Positions 3,395-12,598 of a DNA stretch of 48,452 nucleotides are shown here, piece by piece (the stretch's first letter is position 1; each line of letters opens with the position of its first letter). The stretch lies in the NCBI GenBank assembly GCA_026707285.1, contig JAPOXD010000051.1:1-48452 (forward strand), written 5' to 3'. The notes under the pieces are model-generated. The model made no database searches. It was not told the DNA's origin and worked only from the letters and a program-made list of their open reading frames with translations. The position numbers were made by a program, and so were the translations under genes. Source of the DNA: Chloroflexota bacterium (GTDB lineage: Bacteria > Chloroflexota > UBA11872).

Positions 3395-4282
3395 TTGAAC
3401 GCCTCGGAGAATCCGCTCGCCGTTTGTGTGCGCCGTGCCGGGCAGTGGGCCATGGGCGCCGCGGTGCTCACCATTGGCCTCATCACTTACGGCGCCTGGG
3501 TGCGCGTGTCCGGGGCCGGGCTGGGCTGTCCCGACTGGCCGCTGTGCGAAGGCGTGATCGTCCCTGAGCTCGAGGGCGCCACCGCCATTGAGTTCGGTCA
3601 CCGCGTCTACGCCGGCGTCACCATGCTCGCCACCGCCGTGGCCGCCTGGTACGCCTTCCGCGCCCGCACGCTTGATTCCCTGACCAACCGCCTGCTCCTG
3701 TGGGCGCTGGCGGCCATCGTCGCCCAGGCCGGGTTGGGCGGCGCCACCGTGCTCACCGAGTTGCACGGCATGGTGCGGCTGGCCCATCTCACTTTCTCTC
3801 TGCTCACCCTGGCCCTGCTGACCATCGGCGCGCTGCACGCGCTGGGTTGGACCCGCGCGGCGCTGCCTGGCGTGCGTCGCACGCGGGCGCTGGTTGTCGC
3901 GACCGCCTTCGTGGTGCTGGTGGGAGGCTCCATCGTGGGCACCAACTCCAGCGCCGGCTGCCCCACGCTGCCGCTCTGCGACGGCAGCGTCGGCGCGGAG
4001 AACCTGACCCTGCACATGCTGCATCGGGCCGCGGCCTCGGCGCTCCTGCTCACGTTTTTCTTTACCGCCTGGCAGGTCTGGCGGCGCGCGGGACTCGGTC
4101 TTCCGTTCACCTTGAGCCTGGCCGCGGGCCTCGTTTCATCCGCGCAATTCGCCGTCGGCGTCACCTCGATCGCCATCGGCCTCTATCCGGAGCTGCGCGT
4201 GCTCCATTTGGCGCTCGCCACCCTGCTCTGGTGGGTTGTGGTCATTCATTTCGGTCTGGCGCTCCACCCGTGGCGCCGCTAA
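3395..4282 (+). CDS. ctaA: Haem A synthase (COX15/CtaA family)
   Basis: CtaA is the integral membrane enzyme that oxidises the C8 methyl of haem O to give haem A for cytochrome c oxidase. The 295-residue product has about eight membrane helices in two halves. The conserved histidines are visible in FGHRVYAG, ELHGMVRLAHL, MLHRAAAS and VLHLALATL, and the first-loop cysteine-containing segment GLGCPDWPLCEG has a counterpart GCPTLPLCDG in the second half. The TTG start at 3395 gives a short cytoplasmic N-terminus; a downstream start is possible. The stop TAA overlaps the ATG of ctaB by one base, so the pair is translationally coupled. Confidence 0.93.
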   Translation: MNASENPLAVCVRRAGQWAMGAAVLTIGLITYGAWVRVSGAGLGCPDWPLCEGVIVPELEGATAIEFGHRVYAGVTMLATAVAAWYAFRARTLDSLTNRLLLWALAAIVAQAGLGGATVLTELHGMVRLAHLTFSLLTLALLTIGALHALGWTRAALPGVRRTRALVVATAFVVLVGGSIVGTNSSAGCPTLPLCDGSVGAENLTLHMLHRAAASALLLTFFFTAWQVWRRAGLGLPFTLSLAAGLVSSAQFAVGVTSIAIGLYPELRVLHLALATLLWWVVVIHFGLALHPWRR

Positions 4283-5154
4283 TGCCCAACCTGGCGCGCC
4301 ACTTCTTCTCACTCGCCAAGCCCCGCATCGTCCTGCTGCTCGTCGTGACGGCCGCGGCTGGGGCGTGGAAAGCCGCCGCCGGCAGCCCCGAGCCCGCGGT
4401 ATTGCTGGCCGTCGTGCTCGCCGGCGCCGTGGCCGCCGCCGGGGCCAACGTCATCAACCAGGGGTTGGAGGCTGACATCGACGCCCGGATGCGACGCACC
4501 CGCGAACGCGCCGTGGCGTCGCGCCGGGTCGGCCCGACCGCGGCCGTCATTGCCGGCGTGGTGCTGGTGGCGATCGCCGTCGTCGCCCTCGCCATTACCA
4601 CCAACCTCCTCGCCGGGCTGCTCACGCTCGCCGCGGCCGCGGTCTATGTGCTCGTCTACACCGTCCTCCTCAAGCGCCGTTCGTGGAACAACATCGTGAT
4701 CGGCGGCGCCGCCGGCGCGTTTCCGCCGCTGATCGGCGCGGCTGCCGTGTCGGGCCACATCGACGCTGTCGGCCTTTACATGTTCGCCTTTGTGTTCTTC
4801 TGGACGCCGCCGCACTTCTGGACGCTGTCGCTGGTGCTGCGCGATGACTACGCGGCGGCCAAGATTCCAATGCTGGGGGCCGTTGCCAGTCCTCGCGATA
4901 CCGCTGTGCAGATCATGCTGTACATCCTGCTGCTCACGGCCCTGGCATGGCTGCCGCTGGCCGCCGGCTACGGCGGGCTGGCGTTCGCCCTGGCGGCGAC
5001 GCTGCTCGGGGCCTACTGGCTGCGCGCCTCCTGGCCCCTGCGCCACGGCGCCGGCGCCAAGCAGGCGTTGAGCGCCTACAAGTTCTCGCTGGTCTACCTC
5101 GCGCTGGTGTTCCTGGTGCTAGCCGTTGAACCGATGCTGCCGTGGTATGCGTAG
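4282..5154 (+). CDS. ctaB: Protohaem IX farnesyltransferase (haem O synthase)
   Basis: CtaB is a UbiA-superfamily membrane prenyltransferase that adds a farnesyl group to haem B to make haem O, the substrate of CtaA. The 290-residue product begins MPNLARHFFSLAKPRIVLLL. Both aspartate-rich sites are visible: NVINQGLEADIDARMRRTRER after the second helix, and FFWTPPHFWTLSL followed by DDYAAAKIPML. The ATG 4282 is embedded in the ctaA stop as TAATG. Gene order, with ctaA before ctaB, and full family length support function. No cytochrome oxidase subunits follow: the next gene is on the other strand. Confidence 0.94.
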   Translation: MPNLARHFFSLAKPRIVLLLVVTAAAGAWKAAAGSPEPAVLLAVVLAGAVAAAGANVINQGLEADIDARMRRTRERAVASRRVGPTAAVIAGVVLVAIAVVALAITTNLLAGLLTLAAAAVYVLVYTVLLKRRSWNNIVIGGAAGAFPPLIGAAAVSGHIDAVGLYMFAFVFFWTPPHFWTLSLVLRDDYAAAKIPMLGAVASPRDTAVQIMLYILLLTALAWLPLAAGYGGLAFALAATLLGAYWLRASWPLRHGAGAKQALSAYKFSLVYLALVFLVLAVEPMLPWYA

Positions 5155-5220
5155 GCCGGGATCGCCATCGAGCGAGCGTGCGGTCGTCCTCCTCGTTCCC
5201 GGTATGGGCTGACTGCCGGC

Positions 5221-6432
5221 TCACCCCCGCGATCGCGTCGCATACCGGAGCGTAGCCACGATGGGCAGCGCGGCCAGGACGACGGCCGCCGCCGCGTAGA
5301 ACGGCAGGCCGGCCATGTCCTCGAATTGCCCGGCCAGCCGCCCGCTGCCGGCCGCGCCGGCGGCGACGCCCAGCGAATACACCGCATAGAAGACCCCAAA
5401 CACCCTTCCGCGGCGCCTGGGGCCGGTGGCTTCCGTGACCAACGCCGCCGCCGCCGGAAATACGAGCCCGTACCCGAGGCCGAAGACCGCCATTCCGATA
5501 GCAATCCCGGCGTAGCCGGCGGACGTTCCGACCACGGCCAGCCCGGCGGCTACGCCAAAGAGCCCAACAATCAGAGGAATGAAGCGCCCGATGCGATCGC
5601 TCGCGCCGCCGATGGGACTGGCCATCACCAGCATCGACACCAGCGCGTAGATCGCGAAGCTGACGCCGGATCGTGCGGCGGTCTCTCCTTGGTCTTCCAG
5701 CACGAGGGGCAGGTGCGTCACCAGGACGCCGACGCCGACGGTGATGGCGAACTGCGCGGCATAGGCCGACCACAGCAATCGGCTGCGCCACAGGGCGGGA
5801 AGCGGCTCGGCGTCGCTTGCGCGGGTGCGCGAATCCGGCGGGCGCCATGCCCCGCGCGAGGTGGACGCAAAGATGACGAGCGTGGCGATCACGAAGGCGC
5901 CGTCGGCCAGGAAAACGGCGTTTGCGCCCCACGCGTCGCGAAGCAGCCCGGCGGCCGGCGGTCCGATCATGGCCGGGACCGCGATCAGGGCGCCGGCAAG
6001 CGCCATCGCCCGCGCTCGCCGCTCGGTCACGGCGCGGTCTCCCAGGATGGCGAATGCCCCCGGCGTGAGCGCGGCCGCCCCGAGGCCGTGAATCGCTCGC
6101 GCGGCTAGAAGCTGCTCCGGCGAGCGGACAATCGCGTAGCTGAGCACGGCCAGCGCCGTGATTCCCAGGCCGAGAAGCACTGGAAGTCGACGGCCCCATC
6201 GGTCGAGCACGAAACCGGCCGCCAGATTGCCGAAGAGATTCGTGACCGAGTAGGCCGCGACGATTACGCCGACCAACGTGGCCGACGCGCCGAGGTCCCG
6301 GGCATGCGGCGCCATGATCGGAAACTGCATGAAGAGATCGAAGAACGCCGCCAGCACCACTATGCGCGCGGCCCAGGTGGCGTAGCGCGTGACGCCCTCG
6401 GAGTGGTTATTTGCGGAGTTCGCCTGTGCCAC
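5221..6432 (-). CDS. Major facilitator superfamily transporter
   Basis: This is a 12-helix MFS permease of about 403 residues, probably a drug/proton antiporter or small-solute exporter. The first half contains the loop 2-3 signature GFVLDRWGRRLPVLLG, corresponding to the family GxxxDRxGRR, and the second half has a matching GGASDRIGRFIPLIVG. I placed the start at GTG 6432 (VAQANSANNHSEGVTRYATWAARIVVL) because the first membrane helix begins soon after it and no ATG occurs nearby. The open frame continues upstream into the divergent ABC gene but codes nothing recognisable. It is divergent from the ABC exporter across about 200 bp, so the two export systems may share a control region. Substrate is unknown. 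Confidence 0.85.
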   Translation of the reverse strand: MAQANSANNHSEGVTRYATWAARIVVLAAFFDLFMQFPIMAPHARDLGASATLVGVIVAAYSVTNLFGNLAAGFVLDRWGRRLPVLLGLGITALAVLSYAIVRSPEQLLAARAIHGLGAAALTPGAFAILGDRAVTERRARAMALAGALIAVPAMIGPPAAGLLRDAWGANAVFLADGAFVIATLVIFASTSRGAWRPPDSRTRASDAEPLPALWRSRLLWSAYAAQFAITVGVGVLVTHLPLVLEDQGETAARSGVSFAIYALVSMLVMASPIGGASDRIGRFIPLIVGLFGVAAGLAVVGTSAGYAGIAIGMAVFGLGYGLVFPAAAALVTEATGPRRRGRVFGVFYAVYSLGVAAGAAGSGRLAGQFEDMAGLPFYAAAAVVLAALPIVATLRYATRSRG

Positions 6433-9082: not shown

Positions 9083-9550
9083 ATGTCTGAGACGACAACG
9101 TTGAAAGTGGGCGACGAGGCCCCGGATTTCGAGCTTCCGACGGCCCCCAGGGACGCCGAGCCGTTCAAGCTGAGCGACCATCGCGGGTCGACGGTGGTGA
9201 TCAACTTCGTGCCAGCCGCGTTCTCGCCGGTATGCAGCGACCAGCTCCCGATCATCCAGGAGAAGCTGGGCGGGCTCGCGGACACGGTGACGGTCGCAAT
9301 CTCGACGGATAACACGTGGTCGTTGAAGGCCTGGGCCGAGCAGTCGGGCGTGAGCTATCCGGTGCTGAGCGACTTCAATCCGCTCGGAGCCACCGCGAGC
9401 GCTTACGGCGTGCTGATCGAGGACATGAACATCGCCAACCGCGTGATCGTCGTGGTCGACGGTGACGGCAAGGTCGCGCACATCGAAACCGCGCCAGAGG
9501 TGGCCGAACTGCCCGACTACGACCCCGTGATGGCGTGCCTGTCGGGCTGA
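9083..9550 (+). CDS. Peroxiredoxin (AhpC/TSA family, AhpE-like)
   Basis: This 155-residue thiol peroxidase reduces hydrogen peroxide and organic peroxides in the cytoplasm. The active-site pattern PxxxSxxC is present as PAAFSPVC, with the peroxidatic cysteine at residue 51, preceded by the family LSDHRGSTVVINF strand. A second cysteine lies near the C-terminus in MACLSG (residue 152) and could act as resolving cysteine. ATG 9083 is chosen because GGGAG lies about 7 bases upstream; longer readings add a non-homologous, Gly/Arg-rich extension. It is one of three thiol-redox genes within 3.5 kb. Confidence 0.9.
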   Translation: MSETTTLKVGDEAPDFELPTAPRDAEPFKLSDHRGSTVVINFVPAAFSPVCSDQLPIIQEKLGGLADTVTVAISTDNTWSLKAWAEQSGVSYPVLSDFNPLGATASAYGVLIEDMNIANRVIVVVDGDGKVAHIETAPEVAELPDYDPVMACLSG

Positions 9551-9779: not shown

Positions 9780-10535
9780 GTGAGATTGCCGAATCCGGTC
9801 TTGGCCACGCTGCGCCGAGGCGAAGTGTCCATTGGCTCCTGGCTCAACCTGGCGTCGCCCCTGGCCGCCGAAGTGATGGCGGTGGGCGGCTGCGAGTGGC
9901 TGGTGATCGACGCCGAGCATGCGCCCTGGGACCTGGGGATGATCACGGAAGGGCTCCGGGCCATCGAGTCGCAGGGATGCGTGCCGCTCGTGCGTCCCTG
10001 GACCAACGACCCAGCGTGCTTCGGGCAGATCCTGGACGCTGGCGCCATGGGCCTGGTCGTCCCGCACGTGAGCACGGTCGAGCAGGCCGAGGCCATTGCC
10101 GAGGCCGTGCGCTATCCGCCCCGCGGGCACCGCTCGTCCGGCACCTCGCGCGCCACCATCGACCGCGCCTGGACCGCGCAGGCCAACGACAACCTGATCA
10201 TCTGCCCCCAAATCGAGGACCTGGAGGGCGTCGCCAACACCCAGGCGATCATGGAGGTCGACGGCATGGACGTGGCCTACATCGGACCGTCCGACCTGGC
10301 GCTGTCCATGGGGCTCACCAGTGCCGACATGTTCACGAACCCGGATCACGCGGACGCCATCGCTGGGGTCCTGGCCGGGGCGCAGGCCGCAGGCAAACCG
10401 GCCGGCTTGCCCGCGCCGAACGTGGAGCGGGCGCGCCAGCTCATCGCGCAGGGATTCACGATGATCGACTACTCGAGCGACTACCGCATCCTGCAGGCCG
10501 CGCTGGTTGAGCAACTCGCCGCGGTGCGGGCCTAG
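9780..10535 (+). CDS. HpcH/HpaI family aldolase
   Basis: This 251-residue protein is a class II, metal-dependent pyruvate aldolase of the HpaI/2,4-dihydroxyhept-2-ene-1,7-dioate aldolase family, which cleaves 4-hydroxy-2-oxoacids to pyruvate and an aldehyde. The catalytic base His47 (VIDAEHAPW), Arg72 (LVRPW), metal ligand Glu146 (PQIED) and metal ligand Asp172 (GPSDL) are all present. The start is GTG 9780, preceded by ACGGAGGACG. The stop TAG shares its last base with the GTG of the next gene, so the aldolase and the dehydrogenase are coupled. That suggests the dehydrogenase acts on a product or substrate of the aldolase, which is inference. Confidence 0.91.
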   Translation: MRLPNPVLATLRRGEVSIGSWLNLASPLAAEVMAVGGCEWLVIDAEHAPWDLGMITEGLRAIESQGCVPLVRPWTNDPACFGQILDAGAMGLVVPHVSTVEQAEAIAEAVRYPPRGHRSSGTSRATIDRAWTAQANDNLIICPQIEDLEGVANTQAIMEVDGMDVAYIGPSDLALSMGLTSADMFTNPDHADAIAGVLAGAQAAGKPAGLPAPNVERARQLIAQGFTMIDYSSDYRILQAALVEQLAAVRA

Positions 10536-11575
10536 TGGGCGCGGCGGGCGGCGTGAACTACCTCACCAGCGACCAGGTCGCCGTGATGGGCGCGGCGGGC
10601 GCCGTGGGATCCAATCTCGTCCAAGCGCTGCTGTCCACCGGCACGGCCAACACCGTCGCCATGTACGACCCATTCGGGCCCGGCCTGGAGGGCGCGGCGG
10701 AGGAGATCTACCACTGCGCCTTTCCCGGCGCCGACGTGACCTGGACGACGGACGCGGGCGAGGCGCTGGACGGCGCGGCCTATGTGCTCAGCTCCGGCGG
10801 CGCGCCGCGCCGCGAGGGCATGACGCGCGAGGACCTGCTGCGCGGCAACGCGGAGATCGCGGCGCAACTGGGGCAGGACATCAGCCGGCACGCGCCCGAA
10901 GCCAAACTGGTGGTGATCGTGTTCAACCCGGCGGACGTCACCGGCCTGGTGACCCTGGTGCACTCGGGGCTGCCGCCCCAGCGCGTGACCACGCTGGCGG
11001 CGCTGGACAGCACGCGCTTGCAGACTCGGCTGGCCCAGCACTTCGGCGTGCCGCAGCACCGTGTGGACGGCTGCCGCACCTACGGCGGGCACGGCCAGGA
11101 AATGGCGCTCTACAAGGGCGCGATTCAGATCGACGGCGTGCCGCTCAACGACATCGTGAACGGCGGCGCCCAGGCCAACGGCGTGGGATTGGACGCCGAC
11201 GGCTGGCAGGCGATCCGCGAGCACGTGCTCGGCGGCGGCGCGCGTGTCATCAAGCTCCGGGGACGCTCATCCTTCCAGTCGCCGGCGCACCTCACCGCCA
11301 TGATGGTGCGGGCGGCGTGCGGCGGCGAGCCGTTCGAGTGGCCGTGCGGCGCGTTCGTGACCGGCGAGCCCTATACCAACGTCATGATGGCCATGCCCAC
11401 CACGCTCGGTCCGGGCGGCGTTGCCTGGCGACTGCCCGAAGGCGACGCGGACGAACGGGCGGAGCTTGACGCGGCCTATACGCACCTGCAGCACCTGCGC
11501 GACGAGACGATCGAGATGGGCCTGATTCCGGCCGTCCCCGATTGGGGCTCGGTGAACCCGCACCTCGCGGGCTGA
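10535..11575 (+). CDS. Malate/lactate dehydrogenase family protein
   Basis: This 346-residue NAD-dependent 2-hydroxyacid dehydrogenase belongs to the malate/lactate dehydrogenase superfamily. The Rossmann glycine motif is GAAGAVGS (residues 19-26). The substrate loop contains GGAPRREGMTREDLLRGN, the LDSTR segment follows, and the proton-acceptor histidine is in TYGGHGQEM near residue 187. GTG 10535 overlaps the aldolase stop by one base. It is longer than typical bacterial malate dehydrogenases (about 310 residues), with extra sequence around residues 185-215 and at the C-terminus, so it may not be the main citric acid cycle enzyme. Pairing with an HpaI aldolase suggests a catabolic role on a hydroxyacid. 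Confidence 0.85.
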   Translation: MGAAGGVNYLTSDQVAVMGAAGAVGSNLVQALLSTGTANTVAMYDPFGPGLEGAAEEIYHCAFPGADVTWTTDAGEALDGAAYVLSSGGAPRREGMTREDLLRGNAEIAAQLGQDISRHAPEAKLVVIVFNPADVTGLVTLVHSGLPPQRVTTLAALDSTRLQTRLAQHFGVPQHRVDGCRTYGGHGQEMALYKGAIQIDGVPLNDIVNGGAQANGVGLDADGWQAIREHVLGGGARVIKLRGRSSFQSPAHLTAMMVRAACGGEPFEWPCGAFVTGEPYTNVMMAMPTTLGPGGVAWRLPEGDADERAELDAAYTHLQHLRDETIEMGLIPAVPDWGSVNPHLAG

Positions 11576-11582
11576 CGCGCGG

Positions 11583-12041
11583 TCAGCCGTAGGTGCGCAT
11601 TAGCTCTTCGGGCGTGAGGCGGCCGGCGTTGGTGGCCGAGTAGACGGCCGCTTCGACGCGGCCGTCCGCGTCCAGCACGAATGCGGTGGCCTGGAAGGCG
11701 CGGCGGCGCTCGAAACGGTAGGCGCCCACCGCGTCGAGGGCGTCGGGGTAGGCCAACTCGCCCACCAGTGGGAACTCAAGGCCCAGGCGCTCCGTCAGCG
11801 CCGCAATGTCCTCACGCGGATCGACGGAGAGTCCCACCACGTCGACGCCGATCGCGTCAAGGGTGTCGAGCAACCAGTTATAGCCGGCCAACTGCCGGCG
11901 ACAGTGCGATCACCAGTGGCCGCGGTAGAACAGCAACGCCGTGCGCCGATCCCCCAGGTCGTCGGGCACGCGGAATGGCGTGCCGTCGCCGAGCACGCCT
12001 TCCAGCGTCGGAAACGCATCGCCGAGGTTTAGCCTGCCCAT
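11583..12041 (-). CDS. Predicted selenocysteine-containing peroxiredoxin-like redoxin (in-frame TGA = Sec44)
   Basis: Read from ATG 12041 the frame gives MGRLNLGDAFPTLEGVL and then LLFYRGHW, an in-frame TGA at 11910..11912, and SHCRRQLAGYNWLLD, continuing to a TGA stop at 11583. Translating the inner TGA yields a complete 152-residue thioredoxin-fold redoxin of the AhpC/TSA-like type, including the VVGLSVDPRED segment and AFVLDADGRVEAAVYS. Cysteine homologues have RGxWCPxCxxQL, so the TGA replaces exactly the first redox cysteine to give U-S-H-C. Reading on both sides is intact, an AGGGGGG Shine-Dalgarno lies about 10 bases before the ATG, and a SECIS-like hairpin follows the TGA. Selenocysteine is therefore more likely than a nonsense mutation. 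A shorter reading from a TTG at 11891 would lose the active site. No sel genes are in this window. Confidence 0.8.
11883..11912 (-). promoter_or_regulatory. Candidate bacterial SECIS element with Sec UGA codon
   Basis: On the minus strand the TGA codon (11912..11910) is followed by 10 bases and then the perfect hairpin GCCGGC-AGTTG-GCCGGC (arms 11899-11894 and 11888-11883). The five-base loop contains GU and starts 17 nt after the UGA. Bacterial SECIS elements recognised by SelB are hairpins in the coding region just downstream of the UGA, with a G early in a small apical loop, so geometry and loop fit. GC richness makes some chance hairpins likely, so the call rests on position together with the redoxin reading. 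Confidence 0.65.
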
Positions 12042-12130
12042 CGATCAGCCCCCTTTGCCGAAGGTGCCAGTATGACCGACGGCCGCGTTGGCTCCGGTGC
12101 CGGGCATCTGGGTCGGTAGGGCCGTCCGCC

Positions 12131-12250: not shown

Positions 12251-12598
12251 ATGGCAACCCAATCCACGCCTGAGATCGTCGCCTATCTGAAGCCCGTCTG
12301 CGGCTGGAGCGCCGGCGTCCGCGCCGTCCTGGACAAGTACGACCTCGGCTACGAGGACAAGGACATCATCAACAGCCCGACGAACTACCACGAGATGGTG
12401 ATCAAGAGCGGGCAGCCGCTGTCGCCGTGCGTGGTGGTTGACGGCCGCATGCTGGCCGACGTCAGCGGCGAAGAAGTCGAGGCCTGGCTGGCCGACAAGG
12501 GCTACATCGCCAAGAACAACCTGCCCACGCCGGTCCCCATCGACCGCGCCTGCGCCGACGAGGTCCACGCCGCCAACGTCACGTTCGAGGACCTGTAG
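12251..12598 (+). CDS. Glutaredoxin-like protein with CGWS motif
   Basis: This 115-residue cytoplasmic thioredoxin-fold protein is glutaredoxin-like. After the first strand (EIVAYLKPV) comes the redox motif C17-G-W-S20, a CxxS form in which the second cysteine is serine, so it probably acts by a monothiol mechanism. The cis-Pro segment is QPLSPCVVVDGRML, and the C-terminal 30 residues extend beyond a minimal glutaredoxin. ATG 12251 has GGAG about 8 bases upstream. It is divergent from the candidate selenoprotein across a 209-bp gap, and the two may share regulation. It could reduce the selenoprotein or form mixed disulphides with it, which is inference. Confidence 0.82.
   Translation: MATQSTPEIVAYLKPVCGWSAGVRAVLDKYDLGYEDKDIINSPTNYHEMVIKSGQPLSPCVVVDGRMLADVSGEEVEAWLADKGYIAKNNLPTPVPIDRACADEVHAANVTFEDL

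Follow-up and report, generated by a model that had tools for sequence, protein, structure and literature searches.

A predicted selenocysteine-containing redoxin of the Prx-like UxxC type in a Chloroflexota family

On the minus strand of a Chloroflexota contig, a gene encoding a small redoxin carries an in-frame TGA codon, raising the question of whether this codon is decoded as selenocysteine (Sec) or reflects a broken gene, a faulty sequence or a changed genetic code. A first-pass annotation, made from the sequence of the window (the whole stretch of 48,452 nucleotides analyzed here), had favored the first of these readings. The gene and its principal elements are as follows:

11583..12041, minus strand: gene for a putative Sec-containing AhpC/TSA-type redoxin, 152 amino acids plus a terminal TGA stop (translation with TGA as U; PF00578 and PF08534 matches; orthologues)
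11910..11912, minus strand: in-frame TGA, codon 44, read as Sec (the U of U-S-H-C) and kept in all orthologues recovered
11901..11903, minus strand: TGT encoding Cys47, the partner of Sec44, in the position that the peroxidatic Cys has in true peroxiredoxins (translation and profile alignment)
12049..12056, minus strand: AAAGGGGG, probable ribosome-binding site, 7 nt upstream of the ATG (sequence)

The reading frame, whose strand the first-pass annotation had not given, extends from the ATG at 12041..12039 to the terminal stop at 11585..11583, and the TGA at 11912..11910 is the sole internal stop across the 152 codons. Translated with TGA as Sec, the product begins MGRLNLGDAFPTLEGVLGDGTPFRVPDDLGDRRTALLFYRGHW-U-SHCRRQLAGYNWLLDTLDAIG..., with the motif FYRGHW-U-SHC around codon 44. 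That the gene yields a whole redoxin only if the TGA is decoded, as originally proposed, is borne out by the otherwise open frame and by the AhpC-TSA domain (PF00578), which spans the TGA unbroken (residues 7–131; E = 9.9e-16; 58.3 bits against a cut-off of 26); PF08534 also matches across the TGA, more weakly. The ribosome-binding site noted upstream is likewise plausible. Under the standard code, only a 102-amino-acid fragment with a TTG start (11583..11891) is listed, so that ordinary gene calling truncates the gene, as had been anticipated. None of the NCBIfam redoxin or selenoprotein models (for example, SelL_rel_redox and PrxU) scored over its curated cut-off, the best match reaching 25.3 bits against a cut-off of 140 and SelL_rel_redox 18.5 against 120. 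When all 239 TGA codons of the window with 35 open codons on either side were compared, the codon-44 TGA had the most coding-like codon use of all on both sides, and it was unique among the 14 best in that its own frame was the best of six on both sides.

The TGA is conserved. Full-length orthologues with TGA at codon 44 were recovered from 18 of the 19 genomes of the same family and span two genera; the single genome lacking one is 76% complete. Protein identity is 95% to 97% within the genus and 61% to 71% to the sister genus, and all relatives start at the aligned Met. No relative has another internal stop, and the disabling mutations that the first-pass annotation had named as a sign against its reading are thus absent. 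In close pairs, 2 nonsynonymous versus 16 to 19 synonymous changes were counted downstream of the TGA (dN/dS 0.03–0.04, NG86 counts), and the gene is under purifying selection on both sides of the codon. These results bear on the possibility of a pseudogene or a sequencing error, in which a mutation or an assembly fault would have turned TGC or TGT into TGA. Such errors usually look like this, with a draft-genome gene intact but for one in-frame stop, and the window and most of the relatives indeed come from draft genomes; however, a sequencing error is excluded by the occurrence of the codon in 18 family genomes, which as independent sequences take the place of the resequencing that the first-pass annotation had named as a possible refutation. 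Selection also persists downstream, and the TGA recurs in homologues from many phyla. We therefore rejected this explanation as extremely improbable on the grounds of TGA conservation and downstream purifying selection. The terminal TGA of the gene is an ordinary stop; TAA or TAG takes its place in one close relative and in the more distant ones.

A further copy was observed in one genome of the window's genus (G004, contig C8, 1776..2225); it is 62% identical to the window protein, a value at the level of the sister genus, and possibly represents contamination or transfer. A Cys-form pattern search of 301 Chloroflexota genomes retrieved only four Cys homologues, which served as a control set and read FYRGHWCPFC, FYRGDWCSYC, FYRGDWCPFC and FYRGNWCPYC at the Sec column, in keeping with the cysteine relatives predicted for this position. 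The same pattern detected no Cys form in those family genomes to which it was applied.

The genome holding the window, a 3.21-Mb draft that is 97% complete, encodes the machinery needed for Sec decoding. It contains a tRNA-Sec (71.3 bits; gathering cut-off 47), called by ARAGORN as tRNA-SeC with the anticodon tca (UCA), and profile searches identified selA (495 bits versus a cut-off of 268), selB (309 versus 242) and selD (376 versus 125). With selA, selB, selC and selD all found, the bacterial Sec-decoding system is complete, which settles in the affirmative the check that had been proposed for this locus. Because selA also exceeded the cut-off in 39 of the 41 relatives examined, the ability to decode Sec is probably common to the lineage. 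Alternatively, UGA might have been reassigned throughout the genome (for example, to Trp or Gly), or termination might be leaky with insertion of another amino acid, and the frame is open whichever residue the TGA encodes. Yet a coding-like context is rare among the in-frame TGA codons of the window, the redoxin gene itself stops at TGA, and Trp is encoded by TGG in the codon directly before the TGA; moreover, the tRNA with the UCA anticodon is of the Sec type and is accompanied by all sel genes, and homologues hold Cys at the Sec position. We give next to no credence to either variant, stop reassignment having been rejected in view of the tRNA-Sec and sel genes and the scarcity of coding-like in-frame TGA codons.

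Other TGA-containing genes were observed in the same genome. The selD gene is itself a selenoprotein gene with an in-frame TGA (SPGAG-U-ACK; contig C12, 17346..18272, locus L027), and its UACK fits the UxxK motif listed for Sec-type SelD (PMC13188914). On contig C37 (locus L022), two more redoxin genes with in-frame TGA codons (3451..4551 and 5186..6199, both minus strand) have the motifs FYRAFW-U-TAC and FYRAFW-U-GTC. Both encode a lipoprotein-like stretch at the N-terminus and a linker rich in Pro and Thr; they sit amid genes for small cytochrome-like CxxCH proteins, have counterparts in relatives and are probable exported selenoproteins.

Decoding of UGA as Sec in bacteria depends on a hairpin in the message, and one candidate follows the codon:

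11883..11899, minus strand: SECIS-like hairpin GCCGGC-AGTTG-GCCGGC, whose loop G lies 20 nt downstream of the TGA, counted from its T (conservation and codon test)

All family members share the 6-bp stem at bases 13 to 29 from the TGA (T = 0) and a loop of AGTTG or AGTTA. In most of the sister genus, the encoded Ala-Gly is replaced by Val-Ala and the opposite arm of the hairpin is altered in step, with a compensatory change from C-G to G-C; a G-C pair has in addition become A-U in three loci and a G-U wobble in others. To separate the hairpin signal from coding constraint, we redrew codons synonymously according to each gene's own usage. All 48 of 48 stem pairs were observed in the family, against 30.2 expected and a maximum of 37 in 500 draws, and 379 of 498 were observed across 83 distinct Sec homologues, the divergent part of which was drawn from many phyla, against 276.3 expected (SD 8.3, maximum 303), an excess of about 12 SD over the synonymous-codon controls; because the sequences share ancestry, these figures are not strict probabilities. 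An unbroken stem of at least 5 bp in the exact register occurs in 42 of the 83 sequences (3.3 expected), and others may use a different register. The same geometry placed at 14 other offsets gave z values from −4.4 to +2.2. Every family member has TTA or TTG as the Leu codon of the hairpin loop; TTR makes up 18 of 255 Leu codons (7%) across five genes of the window, and the four Cys homologues all have CTG or CTC at this position instead. In an energy scan of the gene in 45-nt pieces, the SECIS region did not stand out, GC content being high throughout the gene, nor was the hairpin present in the free minimum-energy fold of every relative; it was the synonymous-codon test that set the region apart. 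Bacterial SECIS elements are described as small-loop hairpins with a loop G just downstream of the UGA (PMC1088965), features that the redoxin hairpin shares, and we identify it as the expected bacterial SECIS, under selection. Taken with the conserved TGA and the sel genes, this conserved hairpin at the bacterial SECIS place upholds the selenoprotein claim of the first-pass annotation, and we regard it as nearly certain that minus-strand 12041..11583 is a real selenoprotein gene of the Prx-like UxxC family.

How the product might work is suggested by its motif and predicted fold. The AlphaFold model (mean pLDDT 95.1, pTM 0.90) has as its top PDB match the Bcp4 peroxiredoxin 3hjp (TM 0.87), and ResA-type thiol-disulfide oxidoreductases also match. 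A profile alignment with peroxiredoxins of solved structure pairs Cys47 with their peroxidatic Cys and Sec44 with the Ser/Thr of the S/TxxC motif. The PxxxTxx(C/U) signature is absent, with Arg40 in place of Pro and Sec44 in place of Thr; since Arg40 occupies the place of the signature Pro, the protein is not a peroxiredoxin by signature, and membership in the true peroxiredoxins was rejected on this basis. We infer that in the living cell SelB and tRNA-Sec would decode UGA codon 44 as Sec, directed by the hairpin that opens 13 nt downstream of the first base of the codon, and that the product, which lacks a signal peptide, would be a small oxidoreductase of the thioredoxin fold (AhpC/TSA). 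Judging from the motif, a thioredoxin-like mechanism is most likely: Sec44 would act as the nucleophile attacking a disulfide or peroxide, Cys47 would resolve the reaction through a Sec44-Cys47 selenenylsulfide intermediate, and thioredoxin, a glutaredoxin-like protein or another thiol reductant would reduce this intermediate again. The likely function is thiol-disulfide or peroxide reduction. A different catalytic assignment, competing with this part of the explanation only, is that Sec is inserted into a true peroxiredoxin in which Cys47 is peroxidatic and Sec44 accessory. The alignment of both residues with archaeal Bcp-type peroxiredoxins and the best fold matches speak for it, whereas the replacement of the Pro and Thr of PxxxTxxC, the thioredoxin-type UxxC arrangement and the ResA-type matches speak against it, and we consider it rather unlikely.

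The surroundings of the gene are conserved as well:

12251..12598, plus strand: gene for a glutaredoxin-like protein (PVCGWS), a divergent conserved neighbor (PF00462, E = 2.1e-8)
10535..11575: lactate/malate dehydrogenase-like gene

These two genes flank the Sec gene in 18 of 18 family loci; on the far side of the glutaredoxin-like gene comes pheT, wherever the locus extends so far. From its position, the glutaredoxin-like protein is a possible redox partner or reductant of the Sec redoxin. The stronger proposition, that the USHC clade forms a Sec-only branch with a separate function and that the selenoredoxin and this neighbor act as a dedicated redox couple, is speculative and in our judgment improbable. 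The glutaredoxin-like protein also has weak matches to Uxx-star families, and a second AhpC/TSA redoxin, of the Cys type (FSPVC), lies near the Sec gene in the window (9083..9550, plus strand).

The locus indicates that a Chloroflexota family possesses the machinery for reading UGA as Sec and puts Sec into small redox proteins, the genes for which are truncated by standard annotation and named by no NCBIfam model over its cut-off. With it, the Prx-like UxxC family gains a well-supported branch, and the hairpin is a clear case of selection acting on a SECIS; existing knowledge of Sec decoding is left unchanged. The expectation that selenium use would reveal much about the lifestyle of the organism was overstated, as the redoxin points to selenium use and no further. 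A literature search with a limited set of terms found no paper on Sec in this lineage.

The protein had also been called a new selenoprotein, and here only the noun holds, because Prx-like UxxC proteins have been known for two decades. They were reported as "Prx-like" selenoproteins in the 2005 Sargasso Sea set (22 sequences; PMC1088965), as Prx-like 1 (pfam00578, UxxC) in the 2008 GOS set, with 225 sequences and 2,740 Cys homologues (PMC2398784), and as "Prx-like thiol:disulfide oxidoreductase, PF00578, UxxC" in a 2026 table of known families (PMC13188914, Table 1). Searching GTDB genomes with the DNA pattern F-Y-R-G-x-W-TGA-x-x-C returned at least 120 stretches; among the matches listed, 79 of 80 read as redoxins on inspection, from Proteobacteria, Acidobacteria, Gemmatimonadetes, Verrucomicrobia, Planctomycetes, Chloroflexi and others. 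Matched by domain, motif and SECIS, the Sec redoxin is assigned to Prx-like 1, with which it shares PF00578, Sec as the first residue of UxxC, a SECIS directly 3' of the codon and the existence of Cys homologues; it differs in having U-S-H-C where U-P-[YF]-C is common and in its host, a Chloroflexota family that yielded no Cys form. The PF08534 UxxC redoxins and the cd02970 Peroxiredoxin-like UxxS proteins (PMC13188914, Table 1) are alike in superfamily and general Sec site, but the PF08534 match is weaker here than that to PF00578, and the protein is not of the UxxS type because the second Cys is kept. The Sec-containing peroxiredoxin TxxU (PMC13188914) has the same fold; in the redoxin described here, by contrast, Sec occupies the Thr place rather than the peroxidatic one, and the PxxxTxxU signature is absent. 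What is new relative to these systems is the organism, the USHC motif and the conserved neighboring glutaredoxin-like gene.
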